This document shows, piece after piece, positions 5,283 through 29,911 of a stretch of DNA of 36,104 nt (position 1 is its first letter; each line of letters begins with the position of its first letter). Where the stretch lies: positions 1 to 36,104 of IMG/VR virus record IMGVR_UViG_3300010151_000050; one strand, 5' to 3'. This DNA is from a virus. The position numbers and the translations under genes are program-made. The notes beneath the pieces are model-generated. The model was given only the letters and a program-made list of their open reading frames with translations, had not been told where the DNA came from and did no database searches.

Positions 5283-6566
5283 GTGATGAAAAAATTATTT
5301 TTCAGCGTTTTGTTGCTGGTGGCTTCTCCTGTGTTCGCCCAGGACACGAACACTAATATTACGACTACTAATACGTCTACCACTACCAATACGTCTACAA
5401 ATAACAACAACAATACGAACGTAAATACCAATACGTCTACAAATACCAATACGTCAACTAGCACTAACGTCAACACAAACACCAACTCAAACGATAATAC
5501 TAACGTAAATACAACGACTTATACGGGTAGCAACACCAATACGAACAGCAATACAACGAACTACACGGGATCAAATACGTCCGTAAATACGAATACGTCA
5601 AATAGCACTAATACCAATGCCAACACCAATAACAACACAAATAATACGAATTACACTGGGGTAAACACGAACAATTCCACTAACGTAAACACTAACGCAA
5701 ATACGAACACAACGACTTACGATGGCACAACTAACTCAAACAATGTTAATAACAACACTACTAACTATACGGGTGTCACCACGAACACGAATAGCAATAC
5801 AACGAATTCAACATCTGCGGCCACAAACACCAATACGAATAGCAACACCAATGTCTCTACTTCAACGAATAATTCAACTAATACCAATACGAATAATTCA
5901 ACATCGGATAACAGTAACACCACGAACTACACGGGTTCGTCGGTAAGCAATAACACCAACAGCAACACGACTAACTACACAGGCGATACGACCTCTAATA
6001 ACACGAACACCAGCACTAACACGAACACTAACACCTCGACTGTTAATCAAACTTCTAGCAGTAATAACGTAAGCACTAACAACGATTTTAGCCAATCAAA
6101 CAGCGAAGTAAGCTCTACGGCTAACAATACGAATACAAACAACAACACAAGCCAATCAACAAGCAGCCAGCGGGTAACTCAACGAATAGAATCACCACCG
6201 CCTAGCGCAATAGCGCCAAGCATTGGCTCTAGTTACTCGCAAGACCTCTGTACTACTGGCGTGTCAGGAGCAATACAAACGCAGATATTTGGCTTCTCTG
6301 GGGGTCGCTCTATTACTGATGAAAACTGCGAAAGAATTAAGCTAGGCAAGACCCTGTATGACATGGGAATGCGAGTGGCTGCGGTAAGCCTGATGTGTCA
6401 GGACGAACGAGTATTTGACGCTATGCGAATGGCAGGAACTCCTTGTCCCTACGAAGGGTTAATAGGCGAAGAAGCTCAGATAGCTTGGGAAGCTGAAGCA
6501 GAAGAGCCGGAAGAAATAGAATCTGACTACCAGTACAGGCGTTACGGCAGCAGGGGCAGAAGATGA
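5283..6566 (+). CDS. Exported Asn/Thr-repeat protein with Cys-containing C-terminal domain
   Basis: About 427 residues. A classic Sec signal peptide (KKLFFSVLLLVASPVFAQ, cleavage likely after VFA) is followed by ~280 residues made almost only of Asn, Thr and Ser, with Tyr-Thr-Gly punctuation (TNYTG, TTYTG) about seven times. The C-terminal ~115 residues form a separate domain: DLCTTGVSG, then ERIKLGKTLYDMGMRVAAVS, a Cys, and GTPCPYEGLIGEEAQ, with four cysteines and a basic tail YRRYGSRGRR. I recall this C-terminal domain in other marine phages but know no function. The start may be GTG 5283 or ATG 5286; a GGGGGAGG lies 9-12 bases upstream. The stop overlaps the next ATG (ATGA). An extracytoplasmic, possibly fibrous or amyloid-like role is inference. 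Confidence 0.75.
   Translation: MMKKLFFSVLLLVASPVFAQDTNTNITTTNTSTTTNTSTNNNNNTNVNTNTSTNTNTSTSTNVNTNTNSNDNTNVNTTTYTGSNTNTNSNTTNYTGSNTSVNTNTSNSTNTNANTNNNTNNTNYTGVNTNNSTNVNTNANTNTTTYDGTTNSNNVNNNTTNYTGVTTNTNSNTTNSTSAATNTNTNSNTNVSTSTNNSTNTNTNNSTSDNSNTTNYTGSSVSNNTNSNTTNYTGDTTSNNTNTSTNTNTNTSTVNQTSSSNNVSTNNDFSQSNSEVSSTANNTNTNNNTSQSTSSQRVTQRIESPPPSAIAPSIGSSYSQDLCTTGVSGAIQTQIFGFSGGRSITDENCERIKLGKTLYDMGMRVAAVSLMCQDERVFDAMRMAGTPCPYEGLIGEEAQIAWEAEAEEPEEIESDYQYRRYGSRGRR
5346..6160 (+). repeat. Low-complexity Asn/Thr-coding repeat tract
   Basis: About 800 bases built from reiterated AAC, AAT, ACG, ACC, ACT and AAC-ACN pairs, coding for alternating Asn and Thr. Copies are highly degenerate at third positions, so the amino-acid pattern and not the DNA repeat appears to be maintained. 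YTG-containing units recur at irregular intervals. Confidence 0.8.
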
Positions 6567-9562: not shown

Positions 9563-10261
9563 ATGGCGAAAGCTGAGCGGTATGTACTGGAAAATGCTTG
9601 TAAGTATGCGGCCTTGGCTTATGAAGACGAGATAGAAAACGCCATAAAGATAGAATCAAGACTTACCTCTACCACTGCGTTTGTGGTTAAACGAAAACAC
9701 AATGACATTATTTGTTTTCGCGGCACTCAACAGCTACGCGACTGGCTGTTTAATCTTAGTGCAATTCCTGTTCCCTATGCAGGCAGGCTATGCCATTCAG
9801 GTTTTGTCGCAGCTCACGCCTCTGTCTGGGGCAAGATAAAGAAGCATATTGATTTCGATAAACCTACGTTGATTTGTGGACACAGCTTAGGTGGCGCTCT
9901 TGCTGAGTTGTCAGCAGCAAAAATACACAAGAAACACACGCAGTTATCGTTAGTTACCTTTGGCAAGCCTAATACTTTCTTTAAAGGTTTTAAGCGTCCA
10001 ATGAACTTAAAAGATCAGGTGTCTGTGGTGTCAGGAAGTGACTTGGTTGCGCGTATACCGCGCCTTTGTTATGGCCCTAGCGTCAGTCAAAGCATCATAT
10101 TCCATGCTAACAATGGCGATGACTTTGTTGATCCTTCCTCAGAGCTAAAGAGGCGGGATTTTATGAGCGCTAAAAAAGAAGCCATATCTGACCATTTTAT
10201 GCCGGGGTACAAGAAGAGGCTGTTAAAATTTTTATCACGGGGAAAATCTCAAAATGCGTAA
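9563..10261 (+). CDS. Class 3 lipase (alpha/beta hydrolase)
   Basis: A 232-residue protein with the full class 3 lipase pattern: FRGT at 52-55, nucleophile elbow GHSLGG with Ser108, and SGSDLVARIP with Asp160, followed by candidate acid/base His211 in DHFMPGY. The triad Ser108-Asp160-His211 is intact. There is no signal peptide or transmembrane helix, so the enzyme stays in the cytoplasm until the membrane fails or is carried by another route. Class 3 lipases hydrolyse acyl esters of glycerolipids. Between a signal-anchored coiled coil and a lipoprotein, just before holin and endolysin, it is likely a lysis-stage lipase. A virion-borne or metabolic role cannot be excluded. It overlaps the next gene by eight bases. 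Confidence 0.88.
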   Translation: MAKAERYVLENACKYAALAYEDEIENAIKIESRLTSTTAFVVKRKHNDIICFRGTQQLRDWLFNLSAIPVPYAGRLCHSGFVAAHASVWGKIKKHIDFDKPTLICGHSLGGALAELSAAKIHKKHTQLSLVTFGKPNTFFKGFKRPMNLKDQVSVVSGSDLVARIPRLCYGPSVSQSIIFHANNGDDFVDPSSELKRRDFMSAKKEAISDHFMPGYKKRLLKFLSRGKSQNA

Positions 10262-10519: not shown

Positions 10520-10987
10520 ATGAAACTTAAAGGTTTACTAGGAGCATTGGCTCCTACGTTACTTAAAACAGTAACCAGCAGCAATCCTATTGCGGGAATG
10601 GCAATTAAGCTGGCAGCTAAAAAGCTAGGAATGCCAGAAAACTCCAGCATAGAACAGATTGAAGAAGTGGTTGAGAATGAACCAGAAAAGGCCGAAGTGC
10701 TGCAAGACGCAGAATTAGAGATAAAAAAGCTCACTGCGAATATCGAGGGGTTTCGACTTGAAACGGAAGATAGGCAAGACGCAAGAAAGACTTTTGCTAA
10801 AGACCCTACGCCCAAGCTTATTGCAATTTTGGCAATGGTTGGGTTTTTGGCGTATATATTTATGGTTACGCTACAAGCTCCTGAAAGCAATGACGATGCT
10901 ATTGTCAACCTCGTTCTTGGTTATCTTGGGGGTCTTGTTAGTGGCATTGCCAGCTTCTACTTCGGAAGCTCTCATAACGGAAATTAA
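10520..10987 (+). CDS. Holin (GTA_holin_3TM-like)
   Basis: A 155-residue protein. The N-terminus (MKLKGLLGALAPTLLKTV, NPIAGMAIKLAAKKLG) is the amphipathic start seen in the GTA_holin_3TM family. A charged helical middle (about 42-90) follows, then two clear transmembrane helices at about 98-118 (LIAILAMVGFLAYIFMVTL) and 128-148 (IVNLVLGYLGGLVSGIASFYF). It directly precedes the endolysin, separated by one base after its stop, and would form the inner-membrane lesion that frees the endolysin. The family match is recalled from this layout. Confidence 0.8.
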   Translation: MKLKGLLGALAPTLLKTVTSSNPIAGMAIKLAAKKLGMPENSSIEQIEEVVENEPEKAEVLQDAELEIKKLTANIEGFRLETEDRQDARKTFAKDPTPKLIAILAMVGFLAYIFMVTLQAPESNDDAIVNLVLGYLGGLVSGIASFYFGSSHNGN

Positions 10988-10988
10988 G

Positions 10989-11423
10989 ATGGACAAGTTA
11001 ATTGCACAACTCAAGCGTCATGAAGGCGTTAAAAACCATGCGTATAAGGATCAGTTTGGTACTTGGCACATTGGCGCGGGACGGAATATCCACCCTGATG
11101 GCCCTAACAAAGGCATGGGCATAAGCGACACAGAAATAGACTATATGCTCAGCAATGACGTAGCTCGAACAATTGCAGAATTAGCCAAGGAATACCCTTG
11201 GTTTAATGATCTGGAAGATGGGGCTAGGCGTGACGGAATTATCAATATGCACTTTAATCTGGGCCGGGTTCGATTTTCTAAGTTCAAAAAAGCTATTGCT
11301 CATATGGAGTCAGGCAACCATAACTTAGCAAGCGTAGAGTTTTTAGACAGTTTGTGGGCCAAGCAAGTAAAAGGTCGAGCCTTGGAAGTAACTGATATGA
11401 TTAAGACAAATACCTATGTATGA
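10989..11423 (+). CDS. Endolysin, GH24 (T4-type) lysozyme
   Basis: A 144-residue muramidase from the ATG at 10989, which follows the holin stop. A longer in-frame extension into the holin gene has no lysozyme character. The GH24 core is clear: RHEG with catalytic Glu12, AYKD with Asp21, then GTWHIGAGRN. Relative to T4 lysozyme (Glu11, Asp20, Thr26) the position equivalent to Thr26 is His27, with Thr two residues earlier. The later DGIINMHFNLG segment corresponds to the conserved (A/V)xxxxFNxG helix. There is no signal peptide or SAR helix, so release depends on the holin. It cleaves the MurNAc-GlcNAc bond of peptidoglycan. It overlaps the nuclease gene by eight bases. Confidence 0.92.
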   Translation: MDKLIAQLKRHEGVKNHAYKDQFGTWHIGAGRNIHPDGPNKGMGISDTEIDYMLSNDVARTIAELAKEYPWFNDLEDGARRDGIINMHFNLGRVRFSKFKKAIAHMESGNHNLASVEFLDSLWAKQVKGRALEVTDMIKTNTYV

Positions 11424-11823
11424 GTACAAAGCTACTGTTGTAAAAATCGTTGATGGAGATACTGTCGATGTTGATGTTGATCTTGGTTGGAATGTCGTTA
11501 TTCGTGGGAGTAGTGGCCGCATTCGTTTGTTTGGAGTTGATACTCCCGAGTCTCGTACCCGTGACAAAACAGAAAAGAAATTCGGGCTTTTAGCTAAAAA
11601 GTTTGTAGAAGCCTTTATGCCAGTAGGTACAAAGGTCATTTTGAGAACCCATGAAAAAGGCAAATACGGTAGATACCTTGGGGATTTTAAAGTGGGCAAG
11701 AAATGGTTGTGTAAAGAACTTTTAAAACATCATCACGCTGTTGAATATACTGGTCAAAACAAAAAAGATATTCAGGCAGCTCATCTTGTTAACAGGTCAA
11801 GGGTAGTAGTAGATGCTAGTTAA
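11416..11823 (+). CDS. Staphylococcal-type nuclease (SNase/thermonuclease)
   Basis: A 135-residue protein with the SNase OB-fold signature: IVDGDT at 11-16, IRLFGVDTPE at 36-45 and KYGRYLG at 83-89. Residues equivalent to the catalytic set of staphylococcal nuclease are present: Arg37, Asp42, Glu45 and Arg86, with Asp15 as another calcium ligand candidate. The family cuts DNA and RNA in a calcium-dependent way. There is no signal peptide, so it acts in the cytoplasm or after lysis. The eight-base overlap with the endolysin suggests late expression. Host DNA scavenging, viscosity reduction at lysis, or packaging into the virion are all possible. It overlaps the tail hub start by 11 bases. Confidence 0.88.
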   Translation: MYEYKATVVKIVDGDTVDVDVDLGWNVVIRGSSGRIRLFGVDTPESRTRDKTEKKFGLLAKKFVEAFMPVGTKVILRTHEKGKYGRYLGDFKVGKKWLCKELLKHHHAVEYTGQNKKDIQAAHLVNRSRVVVDAS

Positions 11824-17200: not shown

Positions 17201-17978
17201 TTCTCAGGTCGCTATGTCTCAAGGAGTTTCTGCGGCAGAAGTAGCAGAAGCTTTAGATATAGACGAGGCGGTAGTAGCAGGCTTTTATGAACAAGCTGCC
17301 AACCCAGTAGATGTAATTGACGCACAGGCGCAAGCAGCAGCAAACATCACTCCGGGTGACTATGCAGGTATGTCTGAGTCAGAAATTGCCCAGATGATGG
17401 GTTATCGTGGCGGAGGACAGACAAGACGCTTTATGACAGGCATGGGTCCGGTGGAACTGGCTGCGGGTGGTTTGGCTGATGCTCCGGTTAATCCTCAGAT
17501 GATGCAGGAAATCCCTCCCGAAATGGTAGCTGTTGAAGAGACCGCTGTTGTGCAAGAGATGCCAGAAGTAGATTACAACGATCTGGTAACTATGACGGTA
17601 GAAGCCATTAGAGGAAATATAGAAGACGCAGATTCAGTAATTAACTTGTTTATCGACGAGTATGGAATAGAAAAATTTAGACAATTAAGAGACGCGGTTC
17701 TTCAGTCTATTGTTCCAGACGCACAAACAGAAGGAATGATTGCAGGTTCCAGTGGTGGCATGGCTGATGAGGTCATGGGCATGATCGGAGAAGATCAACA
17801 GGTGGCAGTATCTCCGGGTGAGTATATTGTTGCTGCTGATGTGGTGTCAGGACTAGGAGACGGAAACTCTGACGCAGGCGCAGATGTGCTTGATCAGGTA
17901 ATGGATAATGTGCGACTTGCTCGCTCTGGCGGAAGACAGCCAGCTCCTCTTGACTTGTCAAAGGTAATGCCTGCATGA
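14202..17978 (+). CDS. Large internal virion / tape-measure-like protein
   Basis: A 1258-residue protein. The ATG at 14202 has AGGA eight bases upstream; a TTG farther upstream would overlap the previous gene. Residues ~55-130 are Ala/Gly/Leu-rich and membrane-active in look (LPMLAPLLAPMIGSTLGTA). YASGGIVGMANGGE (near 305) and an RGGGQ/AAGGLAD stretch (near 1070-1100) are Gly motifs common in phage internal proteins. The middle is Asp/Thr-rich with a Cys-containing insert. Residues ~840-1030 contain three helix-turn-helix-like repeats. The C-terminus carries SPGEYIVAADVVSGLGDGNSD, a motif I know from marine phage structural proteins of unresolved role. Gene order fits the first of several ejection proteins. 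It overlaps the next gene by ATGA. Confidence 0.6.
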   Translation: MNMQPPLKRTANQLAQRGRFGDTQLVHMNPAEVSGLAAMSPTGQLTINPDTGQPEAFLPMLAPLLAPMIGSTLGTAALGGTLGAGLAGALGSGLATWAVTGDFEKGLIGGVTGFGLGKVFGAAGEAGKAASQADTLAGATANLGTQATPDLGSAIIGGNPVPGYPLTAAAKDAVVPFSPQQTAYLDAAKGLQNAPPATFGQNLGNMGRGFTSREGLAAAGTQLMSPSSMLPIATGLGTTAQIDQQEFMEKMRKEGEATDTAYAQEWQDVFDNAVGVADRDRRRKMGTPPPMSGGNRYASNPYEGRYASGGIVGMANGGETEAERLARLEYEASINDEVFFGNNPDAIPYNSSYVEGSTGTSYSDNFDPYQGTSDRSNDPAHGVGSGSAGITEGNDAFTLQNENDAIANVVTTTPAATADVLAKGADPYNVTAGGGSSEEQLNAAKQKNMQEAIDNVGTRITDGGYFIDTEEGSGAERQSFLRGIHKQKPPGDYRHGFEKEFQFFDHIEDRPIERYADLFGAGANNYLAGLLSGDTGNAPTPVVYERDKDGNLPVDEDGNPIYTKTGETKTVKDNEYSESTITCYPEDGGASFPVTGVNPSCPVGSSETAPAATLKKTCYVSNGDGTYSTSPSDITGVCPTGYFDSKAAADFADTTIIVDDDDDTAVLYDADGNLVTTTDGGAFTNTMGNSTVASLLGDGNLTDDELEQIKTLFDLSSTEGQAAIMGTFGSFDSDLATQYQDYLDSLETTETDTTDTTDITATSYYKYKGPDGQWLYKAVEGMGRTQWDIDITKEEYDAAMSGGGDDTTTTTTDTTTDPFAGTALGTNAATSTDEDRNLLVDMIADGTTTTAEVAARYGLDEDAVIAEYTGIMDDRLATAALERDEALASGDITGVAGTNNLMVTQEDINALVDGVVSGDFTAQDIADQYDVDVDDVLNEIETITNDRAADAQAAADAQAAADATAGEDASEPGNRSGLIRQYVTDTFGEPPYTQEQALQFSQVAMSQGVSAAEVAEALDIDEAVVAGFYEQAANPVDVIDAQAQAAANITPGDYAGMSESEIAQMMGYRGGGQTRRFMTGMGPVELAAGGLADAPVNPQMMQEIPPEMVAVEETAVVQEMPEVDYNDLVTMTVEAIRGNIEDADSVINLFIDEYGIEKFRQLRDAVLQSIVPDAQTEGMIAGSSGGMADEVMGMIGEDQQVAVSPGEYIVAADVVSGLGDGNSDAGADVLDQVMDNVRLARSGGRQPAPLDLSKVMPA
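16735..17290 (+). repeat. Three HTH-like protein repeats
   Basis: Within the 14202-17978 gene, three segments share a helix-turn-helix-like pattern: TAEVAARYGLDEDAVIAEY (about 16749-16806), TAQDIADQYDVDVDDVLNEI (about 16960-17019) and SAAEVAEALDIDEAVVAGFY (about 17228-17288). Each is A-x-x-(I/V)-A-x-x-hydrophobic-x-(I/V/L)-D-x-x-x-V. Spacing is about 210-270 bases. Confidence 0.6.
17043..17096 (+). repeat. 18-bp tandem repeat coding AADAQA
   Basis: Three adjacent 18-base units encode AADAQA, AADAQA and AADATA between the second and third HTH-like repeats. The first two units are nearly identical at the DNA level, suggesting slippage expansion of a flexible helical linker. Confidence 0.75.
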
Positions 17979-18409
17979 GCGAACTCACAATTACCTACGT
18001 TAAGCCTAACTACATTCAGCAAATCTGGCCTGATGTAAAAGAATATATTGCTACGGCTTTAAAGAAAGGCACAGAAAACAAAGGCGTTAAGCCTGACTAT
18101 AACGCAGACCATGTTCAGTCCTATTTGACTAGCGGAGAATGGTTACTGGTAGTGGCTGCGGATAAAGACCAGCACATCAGAGGGTGTGCTACTGTTTCTT
18201 TTACTAACTACCCAATGAGTCGAGTGGCTTTTGTCACTTCGATTGCTGGCAGATGGATAACGAAGAAACCGGAATTTGAAAAATTTAAAACATTATTACA
18301 AGCTCATGGAGCAACAAAGATACAAGGTCTTGGAAGAGACTCTATAGTACGTCTTTGGAAGCGTCATAACTTTGAGCCTGTCAATACTCTAGTAGAGGTG
18401 GACATATAA
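17975..18409 (+). CDS. GNAT-like small phage protein
   Basis: A 144-residue protein with the outline of a small GNAT acetyltransferase-like domain: an N-terminal helix IQQIWPDVKEYIATALKKG, a strand-turn-strand GEWLLVVAADKDQHIRGCAT, RVAFVTSIAGRWI, then a helix and the phrase GLGRDSIVRLWKRHNFEP. Such proteins sit beside internal virion genes in many T7-like and marine podoviruses. They often lack a well-formed acetyl-CoA loop, and here the canonical Q/RxxGxG/A is not obvious. Enzymatic activity is therefore uncertain, and a structural or chaperone role is possible. It has ATGA overlap upstream and TAATG overlap downstream. Confidence 0.65.
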   Translation: MSELTITYVKPNYIQQIWPDVKEYIATALKKGTENKGVKPDYNADHVQSYLTSGEWLLVVAADKDQHIRGCATVSFTNYPMSRVAFVTSIAGRWITKKPEFEKFKTLLQAHGATKIQGLGRDSIVRLWKRHNFEPVNTLVEVDI

Positions 18410-19716
18410 TGGGTGGCAGCAGCGGCGGCGGTAGCAACAGTACAGTTACACAGGTTGAAAAATTACCTAGTGAGCTAGTTCCCTTTTATAAAGACCTTTT
18501 AGGTCGTGGTGTTTATGAATCGTTAACTGGCTATGAAACTTATCCTTCTCGAAGAATAGCGGATTTTGATCCCTATGAAGCTGGCGCTCAGCAAGCTTAC
18601 GAGGAAATGGCATTAGCAGGCACTCCTGAAAGCTTTACGGAATCGCAGAGAACGATGCGTGAAGTGATGGCTGGAAGTCCTTATCAACGAGCCTTGCAAG
18701 CTGACGAAGTTACAGAGCAGCTAGGCAAGGACGTAGGTGAGTATGCAGCCAGACGGCCAGAGTTTGCTGATGTTGATTTGACGAGTAGAGATTTTACTAC
18801 CGCAGCAGAGCAAGATGACTATCTGTTAGCTCAAGATGATCTGGCTCGTTCAGACATTGAGCTAGATAAGTTTAGTGACGCAGGTGTTCTGAGCAGTTAT
18901 ATGAACCCCTACCAACAGACCTTCATTGACCGTCAAAAAAGACTAGCCCGTGACGAGTCAGAAAAAGGGGCAAATCAGATAGCGGCTCAAGCTGCTATGT
19001 CCGGTGGGCTTGGTGGTTATCGTGAAGGAATCATGCAGTCTGAGCGGGAAAGAAATCTTGGAGAGCAACTGCAAGACATTCAGTCTCGCGGAGATATGGA
19101 AAACTATATGCAGGCTCGACAGGCTTTTGATGCAGACAGAGCTTCTGACTTTCAACGTCAGCAGGCTAATGTGCAAGCAGGTTTGCAATATGGTGAAGCT
19201 AATCGGCAGGCTGGATTTCAAGACATAGGACAAGCAAGACAACAGTTTGAACAAGACCGTCTGGCAGATATGCAGCGAGCAGAGTTTAACAGGCAAGGTC
19301 TAGCTGAGCAGGCTGACATTGCTATGCGAGGCTTTGATACGCTCGGTAGAGATGTAGACAGGCGTAGTGCGGCAGCAGGACAGGCAGCAGGTCTGGCGGG
19401 AACTCGTCAGTCAATGGAATATGATCGACTTGGGCAACTTGAGGCTGCTGGACAGCGGCGTAGAGGGCTTGCTCAACAAGGTCTTGATATGGGTTATCAG
19501 GACTTCTTACGTCAACAGGCGTTCCCCAGAGAGCAGCTTAACCTTTACTCTGGCTTGTTAAGAGGAGTGCCTGTAGGTCCGGGTCAGTACAAAAGCTCTT
19601 ATGGCGACCAGCCTTCTGGCTTTCAACAACTTCTCGGAACTGGCCTTGGTGCTGCTGGGTTATACGGCGCTACTGGTGGCTGGGGTGGTGGCGGAAACTG
19701 GGGAGGTGGCTCATGA
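18409..19716 (+). CDS. Internal virion / ejection-type helical protein
   Basis: A 435-residue protein: Gly/Ser-rich N-terminus (MGGSSGGGSNST), a LPSELVPFYKDLLGRGVYESL motif, then ~300 residues that are helical and rich in Gln, Arg, Ala and Asp (QARQAFDADRASDFQRQQAN, GQARQQFEQDRLADMQRAEF). The C-terminus is Gly/Trp-rich. A SSYMNPYQQTFIDRQKR segment (near 164) and an AAQAAMSGGLGGYREGI segment (near 193) recur in marine phage proteins of this kind. There is no signal peptide. Position between other internal proteins supports a core/ejection role, which is an inference. Confidence 0.6.
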   Translation: MGGSSGGGSNSTVTQVEKLPSELVPFYKDLLGRGVYESLTGYETYPSRRIADFDPYEAGAQQAYEEMALAGTPESFTESQRTMREVMAGSPYQRALQADEVTEQLGKDVGEYAARRPEFADVDLTSRDFTTAAEQDDYLLAQDDLARSDIELDKFSDAGVLSSYMNPYQQTFIDRQKRLARDESEKGANQIAAQAAMSGGLGGYREGIMQSERERNLGEQLQDIQSRGDMENYMQARQAFDADRASDFQRQQANVQAGLQYGEANRQAGFQDIGQARQQFEQDRLADMQRAEFNRQGLAEQADIAMRGFDTLGRDVDRRSAAAGQAAGLAGTRQSMEYDRLGQLEAAGQRRRGLAQQGLDMGYQDFLRQQAFPREQLNLYSGLLRGVPVGPGQYKSSYGDQPSGFQQLLGTGLGAAGLYGATGGWGGGGNWGGGS

Positions 19717-21824
19717 ACATACTTGAGCAAGAAGACATTATTAAAGGCTTACCTGATGCTGCGTTGCAACAGGAAATGTCTGCTCCTTCTGGGCAAGTTC
19801 CTCAGTTTTTGGTGTTGTCAGAAATACAACGAAGAACAGATATGCGTGATCGGTTTGAAGCTAGTGAGCCTCAACCCACAACCACTGTAAGAGATCAAAT
19901 CATGGCGGAAGGTCTAGGTGCGTCAGTTCCTCAGCCTAACATGCCTCCTATGCCTTCACCTAACATGGGAGGTATGCTTCCAAATTCTCCTGTCCCTGCT
20001 CGACCTAACTCCTCGTCACCTCCGTTCCCCGTGGGTGATGCCCCACAAGGGCTGGCAGGGATGGGAGTTCAATACGCAAGTACAGGTGGTGTTGTACGGA
20101 TGCAGGAAGGACAACAGGTTCCTAGCTCCTTAAAAGATTTGCGAAACGGAGAAGCTGTCGTTTTGGCTAGAGGCGAAAATCCCGATAACTTTTCTGTGGC
20201 TGACTTAGAGTACCTTGGAAGAACAAACCCCAATCAACTTGGGTTTATGTCAAATTTTATGGGTAATAATCATCCTGCTTTTGGGAGCGTTCAGTATCAA
20301 AGCCCAGCCTCAAATGTTTCTACTGATAACGCCGAAGCAAAGCCTGTTGAGGTAGCGCCTTTAGATTATTTAGATGTACTGGAAGGGCAAAGTCTTAGCC
20401 CTGAGATAGAGTATGAGCAAAGAACTGGCCGTGACATTGACGCACCAACTAGGTGGGAAGAGGCCAGTGATCGGTTCAACCAATTAGTTGCCGATGAAGA
20501 GAGATACCCTTACAGGCATCTTGACTCTGATTTTAAATCGAAGATGCCATTTGGAGAGAGAGCTGGGTTGGAATTGCGTGAGGGAGTTACAGAAGTTGGT
20601 GACGTATTTCGTACTCTAGGGCCAGCGTCTGGAGAGGCTGTTTTAGACTTTGCTACTGTTTTGGGTACAGGTGACCTACGCGATCCTCCCCTACAACGAG
20701 AAGAAGGTCTACGCAACGTAGGTTCTGCTTACGATAGATTTGTGAGAGAGCCTGCGGCAAGGCTTTCTCAACCCATTCAAGAGTGGGCGCAAAACTTTGA
20801 TATGGTTGAAAGCGGAACCGATGCCTACAACGCCGCTAAAAACTATCTAGGTGACGATCTGGGCTTGAGAGAGTGGGCGCAAAACTTTGATATGGTTGAA
20901 GCAGCAAAAGAACTGGGCGGCTCTATTAAGGATGGACTTGGTGAATATATGCCAGACCTGTATGCACCTCATCCTGACATGATGGAAAAAATAACATCTT
21001 TTTTTGATGGCGACGGCGAGATAAAGGAAACAAGTGAGGGTGCTATAACAGCAGACTCAGCCAGAGCTATAACGGAATATACGGGTACGGCCTCTATGGC
21101 TCCGGCAGACATTTCTGGTGGTTTAAGCTTAGATGAAGCTGAAGGAGAGGGATTAGAAATAATCGACACAGCAGGCGGCACTACCGTAGGCGGCACTTCG
21201 GATAACGAGGTGATGGATATGCTGTTAGAGGAACACGCATCCTTTGGTGATGCCCAGCAGGAAAGTGCAGAAAGTTTGCGCTCGCTGATTGCCCAAAATC
21301 GGGCAGAAACAAAAAGTCGTGCTTTTAATCTGGGTATGGCAGCTCTTGGTGCTGGCATTGCTAAAGGCGATATGGGCGCTGGAATGGATGAGGCCGTAAA
21401 AGTGGCAAGCAATACTTTAGCAAAGGGTGAGGCGGCAGTGGCTCCGTTAGAAGCTGCGGCGGTTACCGAAAAAACCCAAGGCTCTAAGGATCGTTTGGAG
21501 TCATTAGCTCAAATTGCCAGAGCTGATGCTGGGTATAGACAGGTTAGGGCGCAACTGGTTCGCGAAGGCGGTTTAACCGCTAGAAATTACAATACGTTAA
21601 AGGTTGCTACTATGCGAGCAGTCGAGAACTTAATGGAGGATACTTTTATAGAAGGAACCGAAACTACCGAAGGAAAAGTCCAAGTTTTTAATCAGTTGAT
21701 GAATATGCTGATGGGTGATGTGGGCACTCTAATGGACACGCGAGCTGATTCCTATCAAAGTCAGCTCGTAAGAAACCCAGAAGGATCACCTAGCACATTT
21801 AGATATGTGGTTCCGCAGTCCTAA
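19713..21824 (+). CDS. Internal virion protein, disordered and helical
   Basis: A 703-residue protein. The N-terminus (LPDAALQQEMSAPSGQVPQF, LVLSEIQRRTDMRDRFEA) is a recognisable start of a large family in marine short-tailed phages. It is followed by a Pro/Met-rich linker and a Gly motif (YASTGGVVRMQEGQQVP). Residues ~350-400 include a duplicated REWAQNFDMVE segment. The C-terminal third is helical (LRSLIAQNRAETKSRAFNLG, then an Ala/Gly-rich GMAALGAGIAKG and a long helix). There is no enzymatic motif. A virion-internal function with ejection is inferred from neighbours. The stop overlaps the start of the giant gene by one base (TAATG). Confidence 0.6.
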   Translation: MNILEQEDIIKGLPDAALQQEMSAPSGQVPQFLVLSEIQRRTDMRDRFEASEPQPTTTVRDQIMAEGLGASVPQPNMPPMPSPNMGGMLPNSPVPARPNSSSPPFPVGDAPQGLAGMGVQYASTGGVVRMQEGQQVPSSLKDLRNGEAVVLARGENPDNFSVADLEYLGRTNPNQLGFMSNFMGNNHPAFGSVQYQSPASNVSTDNAEAKPVEVAPLDYLDVLEGQSLSPEIEYEQRTGRDIDAPTRWEEASDRFNQLVADEERYPYRHLDSDFKSKMPFGERAGLELREGVTEVGDVFRTLGPASGEAVLDFATVLGTGDLRDPPLQREEGLRNVGSAYDRFVREPAARLSQPIQEWAQNFDMVESGTDAYNAAKNYLGDDLGLREWAQNFDMVEAAKELGGSIKDGLGEYMPDLYAPHPDMMEKITSFFDGDGEIKETSEGAITADSARAITEYTGTASMAPADISGGLSLDEAEGEGLEIIDTAGGTTVGGTSDNEVMDMLLEEHASFGDAQQESAESLRSLIAQNRAETKSRAFNLGMAALGAGIAKGDMGAGMDEAVKVASNTLAKGEAAVAPLEAAAVTEKTQGSKDRLESLAQIARADAGYRQVRAQLVREGGLTARNYNTLKVATMRAVENLMEDTFIEGTETTEGKVQVFNQLMNMLMGDVGTLMDTRADSYQSQLVRNPEGSPSTFRYVVPQS
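20781..20900 (+). repeat. Exact 30-bp direct repeat, 90 bp apart
   Basis: Bases 20781-20810 and 20871-20900 are identical and in frame, both encoding EWAQNFDMVE. The exactness at silent positions points to a recent duplication or to a maintained sequence. The 60 bases between the copies are unique. Confidence 0.9.
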
Positions 21825-24800
21825 TGCCGCAGATAGTTGAGGTAATACAAGGAGGTCAACCTACCCAAGTAGAGTTTCCTGATGACATGTCACCAGAATC
21901 TATTGAAGAGGTTCTACGCCGTGAGTTTCCTTCTGCCCCTGCTACACAGCAGGGGTTTTCTTTGTCTGGCGTTCCATCGCAGCCTGATGTTGTCGATGAT
22001 CCTTCTGCTCTCGATAGCACTATTGGGGACGAATGGACGCGAGGGGTTGAGCGTTTAAAAATTGATTACCCTGCTTTTGCACAATCTTTTTCCGATCCTG
22101 AAGAGGCGGCGTTAGAGGCGATAGCTAAAGGTGATGAGGTTGCTGCGCGGTTAGGCAGGCCAGCAACGATGGCTGACGTTATGACAGCTTACGAGGAGGA
22201 AGGCTTTGTTGGGGCTGGAGGAGAAGTTCTTCAGGCAATCCCTAGAGTAGTAGCTTCACAGGCTCCCAATACCCTTGCTTCTATGGCTGGAGCATTTGGA
22301 GGAAGCAGGTTGGTTGGTGGTCTTTCCCGCCTTCTAGGGATGGTTCCTCACCCTGCGGCTAAAATTGCAGGGGGTGTTATAGGCGCTGGTTCCGCAATTC
22401 TTCCACAGTTATTTTCTCAAAATATTCAGCGGCAGGCAGAAACTGATATTGCAGAAGGAAGACCTGTTGAAATTGATACTGAAAGCGCGGCTTTAGCTGC
22501 GGCTGCTCAAACAGCAGCGGAAGGTTTCGGTACTTACATGACTTTTGGAAGGTCTATAATTTCCAGAATACTTGGAATTACACCTAAACCTAGAGGCGTT
22601 AGATCGTCTTCCTTTCTTGTTAATCTTGCACAAGACAGTTTGAAAGGCGCAGTTCGCGGAGCTGCGGTTGAAATACCGACTGAAATTTCTCAACAAATTA
22701 TTGAAAGAGCGCAAGCTGGATTAGACGTTATGTCGGATGAGGCTTACGCTGAATATGGCGAAGCCGCTTACATGGCGGGTATTGCTGGAGGCACTCTTGG
22801 TGGTGTTTCCGGTGCAGCGACTCCTATATTTACTCCCACTCAAACTCCCCCAGAAGACCTTCCCGGTGACCTCCCCACTACTGCTGACTTGTCAGAGATA
22901 ACTCCAGAGACCGTTACTCCTGACCTCCCAGACACAGAGCCTACCACTGACATCGCAGGAGAAGATGCAGTAAGTCGATTGAAAAATCTAGGCGAAGCCT
23001 ACGATGAAGATGCTCGCCGTGCACGGGTTAAAGAGCAACTTGAAGTTATTGCGCCCAACTTGCGTGGCGTATTAAAAGGCCGTGGTCTTGACGATATTGG
23101 AATCAACGTAGCTTACAATCTCGATCCACAAGTTCTTTCTCGCATGGACGATCCTCAAGAAGTAGAGGCTCTTTTCGACCCCAGTACGCGCACGATTCTT
23201 CTAGGCGCTGATCGGGTCAGAGGCTTTGAGCAACTGGACACTCCACAACTACAGAGAGAGTTCGGTGGTCTGGTAGACCATGAAATGGTTCATGCGGTTA
23301 AGCGGATGAAGTTATGGACTGATGCTGAGTGGGGGGTTTTAGAAAACGTCTCTCGAAGACAGATTAATGCGGATGGGGTTAGTTACTTACAGGCAGCTCA
23401 AGATTCTTATCTTAATGAAAGCCCAGACATCCAACAAGAGGAAGCTGTTGCTGAGCTTATCCGTGACACGTTAGCAGGAAGAACTGGTTTGGCAGGTCAG
23501 CCGCTAAACTTAATGCAAAGGTTAATAGAATTTTTCCGCAAGATGGGCAATGCATTAACAGGCACAGGCTACGCAAGCTTTAACCAAGTAGTAAACGACA
23601 TTGACAGCGGGGTTCTAGGAGCCAGACCTAGAGGTGGTACACCAGCTACACCTGTAGCTGATCCTATGATAGTTGGCTCTCCAGCCTTAGCCTCACGCGC
23701 AGCTAACGAAGGCGATGTGGATTTTAGTAAACATTATCTCACCGAACGACTTAACATACCTAAAGGGGTATACGTTAGTGAGGGAGGGGATATAGGCGGC
23801 GGCAGACTTACAGCAACGAGGATGCATAGAGGCAAGTCAGGAGGGTCGGGATCGACAGATTATATTGGGGAGATTAATTATAGTGATGAGTTAGCAAGAA
23901 GAGGACGCAAATCCTATGTAGTTAAGGACGCTAACTTTCAGCCTCTTGGGACTTTTTCTACTGAGCAGGAAGCCCTAGATGCGTTAGCAATAAAAGGTAG
24001 AGTTAGCGATCAGGTTGCTGACCAAGTTGGAGAACCCATGTACCCACCCGGCTCTGGCCTCTCTTCAAACTTTTCCTATAAAGATGAAGACTTCTACGGC
24101 CCAGAAGCCCCAGTGAGTCTGGAGGGAGGCGTTACACTTATTTCTGAGGATGCTTTAAGGCAGACGCTAGATAAAGAAATTGCCCGACTTAAACCCGATG
24201 TACAGGCTCAGCAACAGTTACCGTTACCAGAAGGCATGACAGGGGCTGAGGTTGCTGCTGAGGAGTTAAGAGTAGCAGAGCAGACCCAGATGCAAGAACA
24301 GGCTAGAGCGGGAGTAGGAGAAGCTCGAAGCATATTAGAAGATGATCAACAGCCATTGGCTGCTCAGAGACAGCAGACCGCTAAAGGATTGCGAGCGCTC
24401 GGGGATGTGCCTCGTCCACCACGGGATGCTGGATGGGAGCAAAGAGCCAAAGAGCAAGGCTTTGATACAGGGAGAGTTTTGTATCACTCTACAAGTCAAT
24501 TTGAATTTGGCGGTAAGGAATTTGAGCGATTCATTCCCTCTGCTGCTGGCAAACTAGGGCCGGGAGTGTATACATCTTCTGAACCAGATTATACCCAAAG
24601 GTATATCTCTGGCGGCATCAACGCAGACGGCGCAAGAACAATACCTGTATTTGCGAGAGGCCGCATTGCAAACGAAGAGGATTATCAGAAAGCTCTTGAG
24701 TTGGCCGAATATGATGACAGGACGCGCACAACTGATCCTATGCATTTACGTGTGAACCCTGACGCTAGGAGCAATCTTTTAATTAAAAGGGTAGCAAAAC

Positions 24801-27800
24801 AAATTCTTCAAGACCAAGGATTCACTGGCATAGAAAGACAGTTTAGGAATGGAAGTGAAGTTGTAATTTTTGATCCTAAAAACCTACGCTCAATTCATGC
24901 CAACTTTGATCCAGCGCGCACAGAATCCACCAACTTGCTTGCTTCTAGGGGAAGAAAAAATAAGGTTGAGCGTTGGACTCAGTTAGCTAGGCAAGCCGCA
25001 GATGAGCGTATCGCTCAATCTCCTACGAAAGTTTCCAATCAGGTCAAGATAATAGATATAGGCAAAGGTCTAAATGAAGCTCATTTAGAAACCTACGGAC
25101 GCAAGCTAGACCCCACTGTGACAGAAGACCAGTTAATAGCTGCAAAGGTTATTGCAGACGATATAAAACAACAAATGACTCGTGACATTAGTGGGCAGGG
25201 CTGGTATGATGCTGATGTTCAAAAGGCTTTCATGATGTTAAGTGAAATACCCGGCTTAGAAAGTTTGCGTACTAATGAAGACCATAGGGTGATTTGGTCA
25301 GCCATTGCAGGGCCGACATCTAACAACCAGAAAGTTATAGGCAATACAAGAGCTGCTGTAGCAGCTATGTTGACGTATTTGCGTACTGGCACTGTTCCAA
25401 CTGTTCCTCCGGTTAAAGGAGCGGTCTCTGAGGGGATTCCCAGCGCTGGCTGGGGGTCGTATCAAAAGTCAGTTGCGAAGGGTATGGAAGTTATATCCCA
25501 GCTAGTAGAGCAGAAGGGAGCGCAAGGTTTTAGCGATTGGTGGCTCTCTCCGCATACTAAAGGCGAGTTGACCGCCATTAGAAAAGAGGTTGGATTATCT
25601 GGCCCACCAAGCGGTTTGAGCGGTAAAAAAGACAGCTACCATCTAGGCGCGATGGTGATCGGAGACAAGACCGGAAGGTTTTCTCTTAACATAAACGGAT
25701 ACGAAGGAACTACAAAAGACGTTTGGTATACCCGTAGTTATAATCGCGTATTTGGAGATATGCTGGGTAAGCCAGTTCGGAATAAGAAGACTGGAGAGCT
25801 AGAAGAAGTTGTTCAGGGAGCGCCAAGAAATCAAAGTGAACGCCGACAAATGGAAGCGTTTAACAAGTTGGTTCTCGACCAGATAGGGCAAGAGGGACTT
25901 TCAGAGGCGGATGCACAAGCTATCTTGTGGTTCCATGAACAGAATTTATATACGGAATTAGGCGTTTTATCGCGACCTGAATCCTTTAGCGAAGGCGTGG
26001 AGGCATTACATGACAATTTCCAAATACGATCAAGATTTCGCCGAGGCGATGAGGGTCAAATTGAGGCTGAACCGGGAGATGCGCTCGAAGGCTGGAGAGG
26101 ACTCAGCCCAGCTCAACGGGTCATCCGTTCCTTTAGGCGATCAGCTCAGGAACGGGATAGTGGAATCTACGATAGCGAGACATCCGGGCCTTACCAAAGA
26201 GGAAGTGTTGAGGGGTATGGAAGAGATGGGCTTCTAAGTTTCTCTCCCGACCCCGCCGCTCTCGATACATATCAGGCTGGCAATCTTTCTCTTCCTGAGA
26301 TCGAAGAAGTAGACTCTGCGACCCATGCGGAATCTTACAACCGTGATATGCGCCAAGCTATGGAAAACCATAGGTATGGCGCTCAGGTAACAATCAAAAG
26401 CCCCGAAGAGCTTGCAGAAGCAAGACTATTTCGCACCGCAAGCGGGAGCGGATTTGCAGTAATGCCAGACGGTGATGTTGTTGCCGTCTTTGCCTCTCCA
26501 AACGAACCTAGTCGTGGCTCTTATGCGATGCTTCAGGCGGCGGTACAAGCTGGCGGCACGAAGCTGGATGCGTTTGACACCTACCTCCCTGATATTTATG
26601 AGACCGTTGGCTTTCGCCCAGTAGCGCGAGTTCCTTGGAATGATGAGTTTGCTCCTGAAACTTGGAACAAAGAGACCTTTGCTGGGTATAACAATGGCGA
26701 ACCTGACATTGTTTTATTTGTGCATGACCCTGATTATTTTGGGGGAGAGACTAATGTTCCCACTGTTGCTGAGTGGGCAGATGCAGCAGCTCTACAAGAC
26801 CAAGCGTTGGAGGAGTTGGATAAACCAACAATCGCACCACAGCCAAAGCTAAAAACCAAACCCGAAGACTCCGCAGCTCTTGCTGAGGACAAGTCAAAGG
26901 GAGCAACAGAAGTCCGGGGTAACCCGGAAGCTGATCGCGCTGCTGCTGACGAACTACGCAAAGTCAAAACACTGGCCTCTCGCCGCAAACCTTCCGACAT
27001 AGTTGAATCAACTGCTTACAATCGTGTAGCCGATGTAGCCTCTACCAGAGCCTCGCGTGGACAAGGCAATATCAATAACGCCCTCCCCTTTGAAGCGCCT
27101 AGCAGTGCTGATGACAGGGGCATTGTTTTCCAAATGCAGGACAAGCTCATTGATCTGAAGAATACAGAAAAAGCGATCAAAGATAATCAACGCCAACATG
27201 GACTAACTTTACTTAAAGATTCCAAAAGCCCTTATCTGGGCGAAGAGTCTATGCACGGAATCATTGGCAATAAATTCAACAGGTTTCAAGAGGATGAAGT
27301 TAAGCCTCTTGCTGAGAAGTTAACAGGAAGGAATATTACCCGGCAGGAACTTGAAGAGTTTTTGGTGTTGCGTCATGCGATAGAACGTAATGCTCATGTA
27401 AGAAAACTTAATGCTGAAAGCAAAGAGCCGCGAGCTGATTTGCAGGACGGTGGTGCTGGTAGTTTAAATGGTGAACGATTGCTTGACGATTACGTTAAGC
27501 AGCAGATGCGATCCCAGTACGGCCTGACATGGAATGATTCTACCCAGTCATGGGAGGGTGGTAACAGAAAAGCTGCGGTTATGAACGATTTGGCGGCTGA
27601 CTTTGATGCCATCACCAGAGGCACATTGCAGGAGCTAAAAGATTCAGGGCTAATAAATCAAGACTCCCTAGACAAGCTTCAAGGCTATTACAAGTATTAC
27701 GCTCCGCTGAGAGGGGTATCTCCTGATGAAGATGTGGCTATCGAGGAACATGCGCGTATCTCAAAAAGCTCAAACAACCTTAGCATTAAGGGCGTAGAGA

Positions 27801-29911
27801 CTGAGAAGGCTAAAGGTCGTGTTTCAGAAGCCTCTCCGCCATTAGGCCAGATTATCTTTCAGCGTCAGAATGCCATAAAGCGTGGAACGATAAACGATGT
27901 GGTCGGACAGCGTATGCTAAACCTTATTAGAGAGAATCCTAATGACAACTATTGGAAGATACATACCGATAGCAAGTACGCGGATATTACAGGGTTAGAG
28001 TTGCTTGGGGTAAAGGAAGATGGCAAGCAGTATTTTGTAGAGTTTAAAGACCCACGTTTACGGCAAGCGATGATGAGTCTCGATGCTGGTCAAATGAGCA
28101 AGGGCTTGGCGATGCTCAGAGGGGTTAACAGGTATTTGTCAGCGGTAATGACAAGTTACAACCCCGGCTTTATTGCTCCTAACTTTACACGCGACATAAC
28201 GGCAGCTATTAGCAATTTGGTTGGTGAGCAAAATGCGGTTGATGGTAAAGCCCTTAATACTGACGGGTTAATAGGAGCGGTTGTTCGGGACGTTGGCCCT
28301 AGTGTCAGGGAAGTATATCGAGGGCTGCGTGGAAAGAAGCTGAATAAGAAGCTTGCTCAAGACTGGAAAGATTATTTAGAGAGTGGGGCTAAGACAGAGT
28401 GGTTCCATGTTAGGTCTCCTGACGAGAGCGCTAGAGATATTGATGACCTGATCGCAATGTCTCAAGGAACCTTTAAGGGCAACATGAAGGCAGGCAAAGA
28501 CGCTATTGCTGGCTGGGTATCCGATCTCAATGGTGCGATAGAAAACGGGGTACGGTTTGCCACTTTCAAAAATGCTAGGGATGCCTTTATTAAAAACGGT
28601 GACTCACAAAAAGAAGCATTGGCAAAAGCTGCGTCTTTGGCAAAGAACCTGACTGTTAACTTTAACCGCAAGGGTAATTCTGGCGAAAAGATAAATGCGC
28701 TCTACTTGTTCTTTAATGCGAGCGTTCAGGGAACAGCTAACTTCTTGCGTAATCTTACCTCCCCTGCCAAACAACGATTACTGGGATCAATGGTAAGCTT
28801 GGGAGCTTTGACTGCTTGGCTTAACGAGATGGTAAGTGAAGAGGATGATGATGGGCGTACTTACTATGCCAATATCGAGCCTTACGTTAAAGAACGAAAT
28901 CTGGTAATCATGAAAACCATTAACCCTTTCTACGATGGACACCCTAAAGGTGTTTATACCATTCCATTGCCTTACGGTTATAACACCCTGCACGTTCTTG
29001 GAGTTAATACAGCAGAGGCTGCTATGGGTCTGATAAGCCCACAAGACGCTGCGGCAAGACTTGTGTCAACCGCTTTGGGATCATTCTCTCCGGTAGGTTT
29101 TGGGACATCAGAGAACCCCGGTTACTGGGCGGCTAAAGGGATAACCCCCCAGATAGGGAAGCCACTAATGGAAATTCTCGTTAATGAAGATTTCTTTGGC
29201 TCTCCGGTTTATACAACCCCGTTTGAGTTTGGGCCACAAATCCCTGTTGCTAACTTGTCCCAGAGAAGCACCCCAGAAGCATTTAAACAAACGACTCGGT
29301 TTCTTAACAGGCTTCCCCTTTTAGGGCCGGGTACTGGAGGAGATGAGTCTAAAAGCGGCCCACTTGGTTGGATCAGTCCTGATGCGCTAGACCATTACTT
29401 TGGTTCTATGATTGGTGGCACAGGTATGTTTGCTGAGAGGACGGGCAGACTGGTTGGCGAGAGCGCGGATTACTTTCAAGAGACTGATGGCCCGATAAGC
29501 TTCGATGATTTCTTGGAGCGACAGGGTTTAACGGTTAATGACATTCCCATCATGCGTAGGTTTAACCATGAGTCGCGAGGCTTTATTACCCAGTCAAGGT
29601 ATTACGATAGAAAAGAAGACATCATGTTGGCCGACAGGCAGGTTGATATTCTAAGAGGTGCAGAGAGAGGGGAATACATTAGGGAGAACCGACCTTTGTT
29701 GCAGATGAAGCGCGGAATGGATTCTTCGGATAAACGCTTGCGTAACATTAACAGAAGGCTGGCTAGGATCGGAGAGCAAATCCTTACGGCTACCTCGTTA
29801 GAGGCAACGATACGATTAGAGGAAGAGCAGCATCGCTTAGAAGAGTTAAAGCTAGGAGTCTATAATCGTTTTAATAAGCTGTTTGATGAAAGGGTAGGGG
29901 TAACAAAATAG
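21824..29911 (+). CDS. Giant polyvalent protein: metalloprotease, ART-like, acetyltransferase-like, LPD38-like
   Basis: A 2695-residue protein, likely injected with the genome. Order: an N-terminal phage domain (residues 1-40, SPESIEEVLRREFPSAP); a hydrophobic Ala/Gly region (~130-225); a zinc-metalloprotease-like domain with HEMVH at 486-490 and a downstream Glu cluster (539-544) as possible third ligand; an ADP-ribosyltransferase-like domain (~880-1030) with LYHST at 886-890, GPGVYTS at 912-918 and EVVIFDP from Glu1012; a middle alpha/beta region (~1040-1395) of the type found in polyvalent proteins; an Arg/Gly/Glu/Ser-rich linker (~1395-1475); an acetyltransferase-like domain (~1480-1665, GGTKLDAFDTYLPDIYETVG); and a ~970-residue helical end with LPD38-like phrases (SYNPGFIAPNFTRD, NFNRKGN, LYLFFNASVQGT). 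Polyvalent proteins of phages and plasmids are thought to disarm host defences on entry. Domain calls rest on motifs and are not equally certain. Confidence 0.75.
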   Translation: MPQIVEVIQGGQPTQVEFPDDMSPESIEEVLRREFPSAPATQQGFSLSGVPSQPDVVDDPSALDSTIGDEWTRGVERLKIDYPAFAQSFSDPEEAALEAIAKGDEVAARLGRPATMADVMTAYEEEGFVGAGGEVLQAIPRVVASQAPNTLASMAGAFGGSRLVGGLSRLLGMVPHPAAKIAGGVIGAGSAILPQLFSQNIQRQAETDIAEGRPVEIDTESAALAAAAQTAAEGFGTYMTFGRSIISRILGITPKPRGVRSSSFLVNLAQDSLKGAVRGAAVEIPTEISQQIIERAQAGLDVMSDEAYAEYGEAAYMAGIAGGTLGGVSGAATPIFTPTQTPPEDLPGDLPTTADLSEITPETVTPDLPDTEPTTDIAGEDAVSRLKNLGEAYDEDARRARVKEQLEVIAPNLRGVLKGRGLDDIGINVAYNLDPQVLSRMDDPQEVEALFDPSTRTILLGADRVRGFEQLDTPQLQREFGGLVDHEMVHAVKRMKLWTDAEWGVLENVSRRQINADGVSYLQAAQDSYLNESPDIQQEEAVAELIRDTLAGRTGLAGQPLNLMQRLIEFFRKMGNALTGTGYASFNQVVNDIDSGVLGARPRGGTPATPVADPMIVGSPALASRAANEGDVDFSKHYLTERLNIPKGVYVSEGGDIGGGRLTATRMHRGKSGGSGSTDYIGEINYSDELARRGRKSYVVKDANFQPLGTFSTEQEALDALAIKGRVSDQVADQVGEPMYPPGSGLSSNFSYKDEDFYGPEAPVSLEGGVTLISEDALRQTLDKEIARLKPDVQAQQQLPLPEGMTGAEVAAEELRVAEQTQMQEQARAGVGEARSILEDDQQPLAAQRQQTAKGLRALGDVPRPPRDAGWEQRAKEQGFDTGRVLYHSTSQFEFGGKEFERFIPSAAGKLGPGVYTSSEPDYTQRYISGGINADGARTIPVFARGRIANEEDYQKALELAEYDDRTRTTDPMHLRVNPDARSNLLIKRVAKQILQDQGFTGIERQFRNGSEVVIFDPKNLRSIHANFDPARTESTNLLASRGRKNKVERWTQLARQAADERIAQSPTKVSNQVKIIDIGKGLNEAHLETYGRKLDPTVTEDQLIAAKVIADDIKQQMTRDISGQGWYDADVQKAFMMLSEIPGLESLRTNEDHRVIWSAIAGPTSNNQKVIGNTRAAVAAMLTYLRTGTVPTVPPVKGAVSEGIPSAGWGSYQKSVAKGMEVISQLVEQKGAQGFSDWWLSPHTKGELTAIRKEVGLSGPPSGLSGKKDSYHLGAMVIGDKTGRFSLNINGYEGTTKDVWYTRSYNRVFGDMLGKPVRNKKTGELEEVVQGAPRNQSERRQMEAFNKLVLDQIGQEGLSEADAQAILWFHEQNLYTELGVLSRPESFSEGVEALHDNFQIRSRFRRGDEGQIEAEPGDALEGWRGLSPAQRVIRSFRRSAQERDSGIYDSETSGPYQRGSVEGYGRDGLLSFSPDPAALDTYQAGNLSLPEIEEVDSATHAESYNRDMRQAMENHRYGAQVTIKSPEELAEARLFRTASGSGFAVMPDGDVVAVFASPNEPSRGSYAMLQAAVQAGGTKLDAFDTYLPDIYETVGFRPVARVPWNDEFAPETWNKETFAGYNNGEPDIVLFVHDPDYFGGETNVPTVAEWADAAALQDQALEELDKPTIAPQPKLKTKPEDSAALAEDKSKGATEVRGNPEADRAAADELRKVKTLASRRKPSDIVESTAYNRVADVASTRASRGQGNINNALPFEAPSSADDRGIVFQMQDKLIDLKNTEKAIKDNQRQHGLTLLKDSKSPYLGEESMHGIIGNKFNRFQEDEVKPLAEKLTGRNITRQELEEFLVLRHAIERNAHVRKLNAESKEPRADLQDGGAGSLNGERLLDDYVKQQMRSQYGLTWNDSTQSWEGGNRKAAVMNDLAADFDAITRGTLQELKDSGLINQDSLDKLQGYYKYYAPLRGVSPDEDVAIEEHARISKSSNNLSIKGVETEKAKGRVSEASPPLGQIIFQRQNAIKRGTINDVVGQRMLNLIRENPNDNYWKIHTDSKYADITGLELLGVKEDGKQYFVEFKDPRLRQAMMSLDAGQMSKGLAMLRGVNRYLSAVMTSYNPGFIAPNFTRDITAAISNLVGEQNAVDGKALNTDGLIGAVVRDVGPSVREVYRGLRGKKLNKKLAQDWKDYLESGAKTEWFHVRSPDESARDIDDLIAMSQGTFKGNMKAGKDAIAGWVSDLNGAIENGVRFATFKNARDAFIKNGDSQKEALAKAASLAKNLTVNFNRKGNSGEKINALYLFFNASVQGTANFLRNLTSPAKQRLLGSMVSLGALTAWLNEMVSEEDDDGRTYYANIEPYVKERNLVIMKTINPFYDGHPKGVYTIPLPYGYNTLHVLGVNTAEAAMGLISPQDAAARLVSTALGSFSPVGFGTSENPGYWAAKGITPQIGKPLMEILVNEDFFGSPVYTTPFEFGPQIPVANLSQRSTPEAFKQTTRFLNRLPLLGPGTGGDESKSGPLGWISPDALDHYFGSMIGGTGMFAERTGRLVGESADYFQETDGPISFDDFLERQGLTVNDIPIMRRFNHESRGFITQSRYYDRKEDIMLADRQVDILRGAERGEYIRENRPLLQMKRGMDSSDKRLRNINRRLARIGEQILTATSLEATIRLEEEQHRLEELKLGVYNRFNKLFDERVGVTK
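25999..26003 (+). promoter_or_regulatory. Strong Shine-Dalgarno (GGAGG) inside the giant gene
   Basis: GGAGG lies six bases before an ATG at 26010 that is in the +1 frame relative to the giant protein. Spacing and match are ideal for ribosome initiation, which is unusual inside a coding sequence and supports the nested gene. Confidence 0.65.
26010..26237 (+). CDS. Nested out-of-frame gene: small helical protein
   Basis: A 75-residue frame lying wholly inside the giant polyvalent gene, +1 relative to it. It starts at ATG 26010 with GGAGG six bases upstream. The protein reads as a real one: an amphipathic N-terminal helix (FAEAMRVKLRLNREMRSK) and a compact C-terminus STIARHPGLTKEEVLRGMEE followed by MGF. 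The pattern (A)RHPxLTxEE...FGF/MGF is one I recall in small proteins of marine phage genomes, of unknown function. Over the same bases the giant protein reads as an Arg/Gly/Glu/Ser-rich linker between two domains, which could tolerate overprinting. Expression is not proven. The alternative is chance, or a relic of a small gene swallowed by domain fusion. Confidence 0.6.
   Translation: MTISKYDQDFAEAMRVKLRLNREMRSKAGEDSAQLNGSSVPLGDQLRNGIVESTIARHPGLTKEEVLRGMEEMGF

Follow-up and report, generated by a model that had tools for sequence, protein, structure and literature searches.

A small gene very probably overprinted in the +1 frame of a phage polyvalent-protein gene, next to a GNAT-fold domain

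Overprinted genes are already known in phages. The locus described here raises the question of whether a 75-residue open reading frame (ORF) lying inside the gene of a giant viral protein encodes a protein of its own and, if so, how that protein relates to the domain encoded next to it. The window, that is, the whole stretch of DNA analyzed, comprises the 36,104 nucleotides of the IMG/VR record IMGVR_UViG_3300010151_000050. The small ORF starts with an ATG at position 26010, ends with a TAA at 26235-26237 and is fully nested in the 2695-residue ORF at 21824-29911, in the +1 frame relative to this host ORF. A first-pass annotation had described the ORF together with a GGAGG six bases 5' of its ATG, and both are present in the sequence as described. 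The features of the locus are as follows.

21824-29911, + strand: host giant gene, polyvalent protein of 2695 residues (Pfam LPD38 and weak ART-PolyVal; PHROGs 14770, 616, 10691 and 2563)
24476-24904, + strand: ART-PolyVal-like stretch of the host protein (Pfam match below cut-off)
25409-26008, + strand: host domain directly upstream of the overlap (bait A2 for unbiased sampling)
25999-26003, + strand: Shine-Dalgarno-like GGAGG, 6 nt 5' of the small-ORF ATG
26010-26237, + strand: very probable overprinted small gene, 75 residues, +1 frame of the giant gene; conserved in relatives
26022-26090, + strand: predicted N-terminal helix of the small protein, residues 5-27, motif YDQxFAxAMxxKLxLNR (model, conservation and codon-phase shift)
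26133-26234, + strand: predicted C-terminal helices of the small protein with the motif RHPGLTKEExxxxMEEMGF (model and conservation)
26192-26833, + strand: host GNAT-fold domain directly downstream of the small gene (structure comparison; conserved core aligned)
28865-29449, + strand: host LPD38 domain (Pfam, above cut-off)

With several disparate domains (LPD38, ART-PolyVal below cut-off and a GNAT fold), the giant protein fits a phage polyvalent protein. The model of the GNAT domain, whose start slightly overlaps the end of the small ORF, matched the structures 1yvk (Z 10.1), Mu Mom (8bv8, Z 9.1) and RimI (5isv, Z 8.9). The host-frame reading of the overlap had been called a low-complexity linker. 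This is true of most of the stretch, which is predicted to be disordered (AlphaFold pLDDT <35 near model residues 201-230), but not of its middle, through which a conserved host helix, GFRxxSxxxRxVRxxRR, runs.

Several other features of the window are recorded here as side observations. An ejection-like gene lies near the giant gene at 18409-19716 (PHROG 4287, E 3.3e-6), and the ORF 5' of it at 17975-18409 encodes a small protein that is GNAT-like by eye and has no match in PHROGs. An exact 31-base repeat (20780-20810 and 20870-20900, found by blastn) lies within the gene at 19713-21824. The adjoining genes at 5283-6566 and 6563-9022 have an extreme composition (Asn/Thr repeats; a Glu/Val-rich stretch). 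The gene at 9563-10261 encodes an esterase/lipase-like phage protein (PHROG 21992, E 2.5e-20) and that at 11416-11823 an endonuclease-like protein (PHROG 452); the latter lies beside an endolysin-like ORF, 10758-11423, which overlaps the ORF at 10520-10987.

The predicted product of the small ORF is a helical protein of ~8 kDa in which a flexible linker joins an N-terminal helix to a pair of C-terminal helices. The pTM of its structure model is only 0.34, and a Foldseek comparison of this model with known structures gave no match and nothing below E 3.6. The first-pass annotation had named two findings that would count against its proposal, the lack of a stand-alone homologue and relatives devoid of the ATG, the GGAGG or the open frame. 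The former applies in part, as a search of 50,697 phage records, PHROGs, Pfam and NCBIfam yielded none (plasmids were also searched); weak tblastn matches of the small protein at terminase genes (E 6-8) were rejected as chance. Nor did these phage records and family libraries contain the RHPxLTxEE-ending small phage proteins to which the first-pass annotation had likened it. Ends of this type were seen in members of the overprinted family itself, and the RHPGLTKEExxxxMEEMGF end is common to nearly all N-terminal types of the marine-phage small proteins. Three loci (L047-L049) combine the usual N-terminus with a different and longer C-terminus (86-110 residues in total). The marine-phage small gene is absent from the annotations and family libraries examined, and the open-access literature searched gave no report of an overprinted gene inside a polyvalent protein, just as Pfam, PHROGs and NCBIfam gave no family of this kind.

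Retention of the small ORF was followed in relatives, most of which are metagenomic contigs. One of them, IMGVR_UViG_3300037634_000027, is nearly identical to the window (99.98% over the compared stretch). A search with the host region alone yielded two further loci with host identities of about 60% and 54%, both of which retain the small ORF with its ATG, Shine-Dalgarno (SD)-like site and stop at the same place. An alignment of the three small proteins, those of the window and of these two loci, led to 31 viral loci, near-duplicates being counted once; in all 31 a longer ORF encloses the small ORF with the relative frame unchanged. This search by its nature selects for the small ORF. Unbiased samples were obtained by picking loci by host domains only, either by the 200 residues upstream of the overlap or by the GNAT domain downstream of it. 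In the upstream-domain sample, 56 of 56 viral loci reaching past the junction carry a small ORF in the +1 frame (the automatic count is 55, because L031 was absent from the list and its ORF was seen separately). In the GNAT sample, the small ORF is present in 77 of 78 newly fetched loci; the host frame was not automatically assigned for 4 of the 77, and the two samples share contigs. The single miss is cut off by the end of its contig, which begins 138 bases before the match. Limnohabitans phage DC33 also carries the small ORF at the same place (locus L055, 6070-6282). The second of the two adverse findings was thus not encountered, frame and ribosome site being kept in relatives picked by their host domains.

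As a test against chance, we permuted the synonymous codons of the host gene, which preserves both the host protein and its codon usage. The small ORF of the window, taken by itself, stays open in 14% of such shuffles. The ORF is open in all 18 diverged relatives, and none of 2000 shuffles leaves it open in more than 7 of them. For 49 sequences and 1000 shuffles, with the SD-like site scored as SD-like 4-mers, the open frame, the start, the SD-like site and the stop are retained by 29, 29, 28 and 29 of the 29 type I sequences (shuffle maxima 10, 22, 16 and 18) and by 20, 20, 17 and 20 of the 20 type II sequences (shuffle maxima 10, 17, 9 and 15). Openness and the SD-like site are the fairer of these measures, since the start was picked at the conserved N-terminus and a stop is inherent in the definition of an ORF. 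The flanks too score above their shuffles, because the shuffles ignore relatedness, but the overlap exceeds its shuffles by far more. Of 21 relatives, only 3 have an open frame at a control ORF (26640-26852) that likewise lies in the +1 frame of the giant gene.

The conservation of residues and codon positions shows the same preference for the small frame. Residue identity over the overlap is 0.455 in the +1 frame, 0.414 in the host frame and 0.176 after shuffling, and in the N-terminal third it reaches 0.680 in the +1 frame versus 0.429 in the host frame. The third codon positions of the host differ in 0.10 of comparisons in the N-terminal helix versus 0.62 in the flanks, while the first host position, which is the third position of the small frame, is the most variable one in this helix (0.40). 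The low third-position difference implies that selection here tracks the small frame, and this codon-position pattern is the clearest sign of such selection. Frame-specific purifying selection of this kind supports overprinting. Judged against the flanks, codon usage in the overlap fits the host frame better (-0.035) than the +1 frame (-0.083), which suggests that the host frame is the older one, in a comparison that the overlap biases in both frames.

These data strongly support, on comparative grounds, that 26010-26237 is very probably a genuine gene, overprinted in +1 phase within the gene of the giant polyvalent protein. Ribosomes would initiate internally on the giant-gene mRNA, at the small gene's own Shine-Dalgarno site and ATG. 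We assign a probability of roughly 0.9 to the joint reading that the gene is genuine and separately translated by internal initiation. The 14% of shuffles in which the window's own ORF survives could point to a frame that is open by chance or to an RNA element that is conserved but encodes no protein, yet the openness and the SD-like site of the ORF are conserved across relatives, the codon-position pattern is shifted and the +1 residues are conserved; we reject this explanation, whose likelihood is negligible given the shuffle tests and the codon-position shift. A programmed +1 frameshift would truncate the giant protein and give it a new C-terminal tail, with no separate small protein being made. 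Such a shift would suit the +1 phase of the ORF and the 14-45 codons by which the open frame extends 5' of the start in several relatives. Against it, 39 of 69 unique proteins have a +1-frame stop at most three codons upstream of the chosen start, so that ribosomes have either to initiate at that start or to change frame within the ORF. Conservation, moreover, sets in at about the start codon, and SD-like sites are kept far above the shuffles. Separate initiation is favored by these retained sites together with the close upstream stops in many relatives, and the frameshift, which we consider highly improbable, was rejected on the same evidence.

What the small protein does was approached through its position. 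Its location before the GNAT domain favors a companion role, and the distribution of the ORF bears on this. A small-ORF profile found the ORF in the distant GNAT-bearing loci L006, L008, L014 and L055 (the Limnohabitans phage), and gave no match in seven loci that have the upstream domain without GNAT (L015, L058, L112 and L114-L117). In L014 the small ORF and the GNAT domain are present and the upstream domain is absent. The profile fails to recognize the +1 ORFs of the GNAT-bearing loci L007, L012, L013 and L016. L007, L012 and L016 represent a further +1 type, for which the L007/L012 pair alone does not separate the frames (33 of 80 residues identical in the +1 frame versus 30 of 79 in the host frame). 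The free-standing GNAT genes examined have no recognizable small gene. On these sequences, the link between small ORF and GNAT domain is a correlation, which shared descent partly confounds.

A similar arrangement occurs in actinobacterial elements. In Microbacterium phages a 47-residue +1 ORF precedes the GNAT domain in gp4, and host codon changes in this overlap are 6 non-synonymous to 1 synonymous versus 29 to 57 in the rest (two sequences only). In Rhodococcus and Kineococcus plasmids a related GNAT domain is likewise preceded by a nested ORF of the same relative frame, with identities of 0.571 in the +1 frame, 0.442 in the host frame and 0.218 after shuffling. All 9 Rhodococcus sequences have this ORF open; because the shuffles reach 9 as well (mean 7.6), only its residue conservation counts as evidence. 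The actinobacterial small proteins (alignment A9) showed no significant relationship to those of the marine phages by hhalign (probability 1.5% and 3.9%), and the actinobacterial profile gave no confirmed match in viral contigs. The annotation of the Rhodococcus plasmids is inconsistent (L212, L213, L219, L221 and L223 versus L220 and L222), and gives either the small ORF with a shortened GNAT gene or a long gene without the small ORF. A barely annotated Nocardia farcinica record (NZ_LN868939.1, 1498-1632) contains an actinobacterial-type small ORF with no GNAT domain seen nearby.

Two other accounts of function have to be weighed against a GNAT companion. The small ORF could mainly be a coupling device that brings ribosomes to an internal start of a separate GNAT protein, and for several Rhodococcus plasmids RefSeq does place the start of such a protein 3' of the small ORF; selection on the residues of the small protein exceeds what coupling requires, and we regard this account as very unlikely. 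The odds are about even that the gene is real and its function unrelated to GNAT. It might, for instance, encode a small component of the virion or of ejection, or a protein for host takeover, and the linker would simply be the easiest place for overprinting. The predicted disorder of most of the host linker, the nearby ejection-like gene, the Nocardia record and the N-terminal half, which differs among types that share a C-terminus, would all agree with an unrelated function. Matches to the profile, however, go with GNAT and not with the upstream domain, and a nested ORF before GNAT recurs in three kinds of host protein. We put forward only tentatively, and at somewhat less than even odds, that the small protein is a companion or regulator of the adjoining domain, for example by restraining or assisting this acetyltransferase-like domain.

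The same layout, relative frame and domain type recur in marine phages, Microbacterium phages and Rhodococcus plasmids. It is conceivable, although we would not bet on it, that the GNAT domain travels among unrelated carriers (phage polyvalent, phage minor capsid and plasmid proteins) with an out-of-frame partner in its linker. If true, this would be a two-protein module written in two frames, possibly an effector and its own inhibitor. Genes of this class are discarded by gene callers as a matter of rule, and the finding draws attention to them; it also makes testable the question of whether the small protein controls the adjoining GNAT domain.

Polyvalent proteins have been proposed to be injected with the DNA (Iyer et al. 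2017, PMC5512222). Restraint of the GNAT domain in the producing cell would mean that the packaged giant protein becomes active only after delivery. The same work describes a phage GNAT family (for example BAR32501.1) as a clade within the RimI-like GNATs that has ART neighbors, with solo members in Firmicutes and Actinobacteria. The giant protein of the window resembles this family in having a GNAT domain in a polyvalent protein and an ART-like stretch preceding it. The text of the article contains neither 'overlap' nor 'frameshift' and thus appears to describe no nested gene.

The small gene of the window shares features with three known systems and differs from each. In phage lambda, the lysis lipoprotein Rz1 is nested in the +1 frame of the Rz spanin gene and has its own initiation. 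Like Rz1, the product considered here would be a small phage protein encoded in a +1-nested gene with its own, here predicted, initiation; unlike Rz1, it shows no lipoprotein signal by eye, matches no known family and is encoded in a giant polyvalent gene before GNAT. The partners of the GNAT toxins in TacAT/AtaRT systems are DNA-binding ribbon-helix-helix proteins encoded by separate tandem genes. There, too, a small partner is encoded just upstream of a GNAT enzyme. The present case differs in that an in-frame fusion is what the small ORF overlaps, and searches of Pfam, PHROGs and NCBIfam gave no significant match of the small protein to a known antitoxin domain. In phage Mu, the com gene, which encodes the zinc-binding translational activator Com, partly overlaps mom. 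The overlap is partial in Mom-Com and complete here, but in both cases a GNAT-fold phage enzyme is accompanied by a small protein, here a predicted one, from an overlapping upstream gene.
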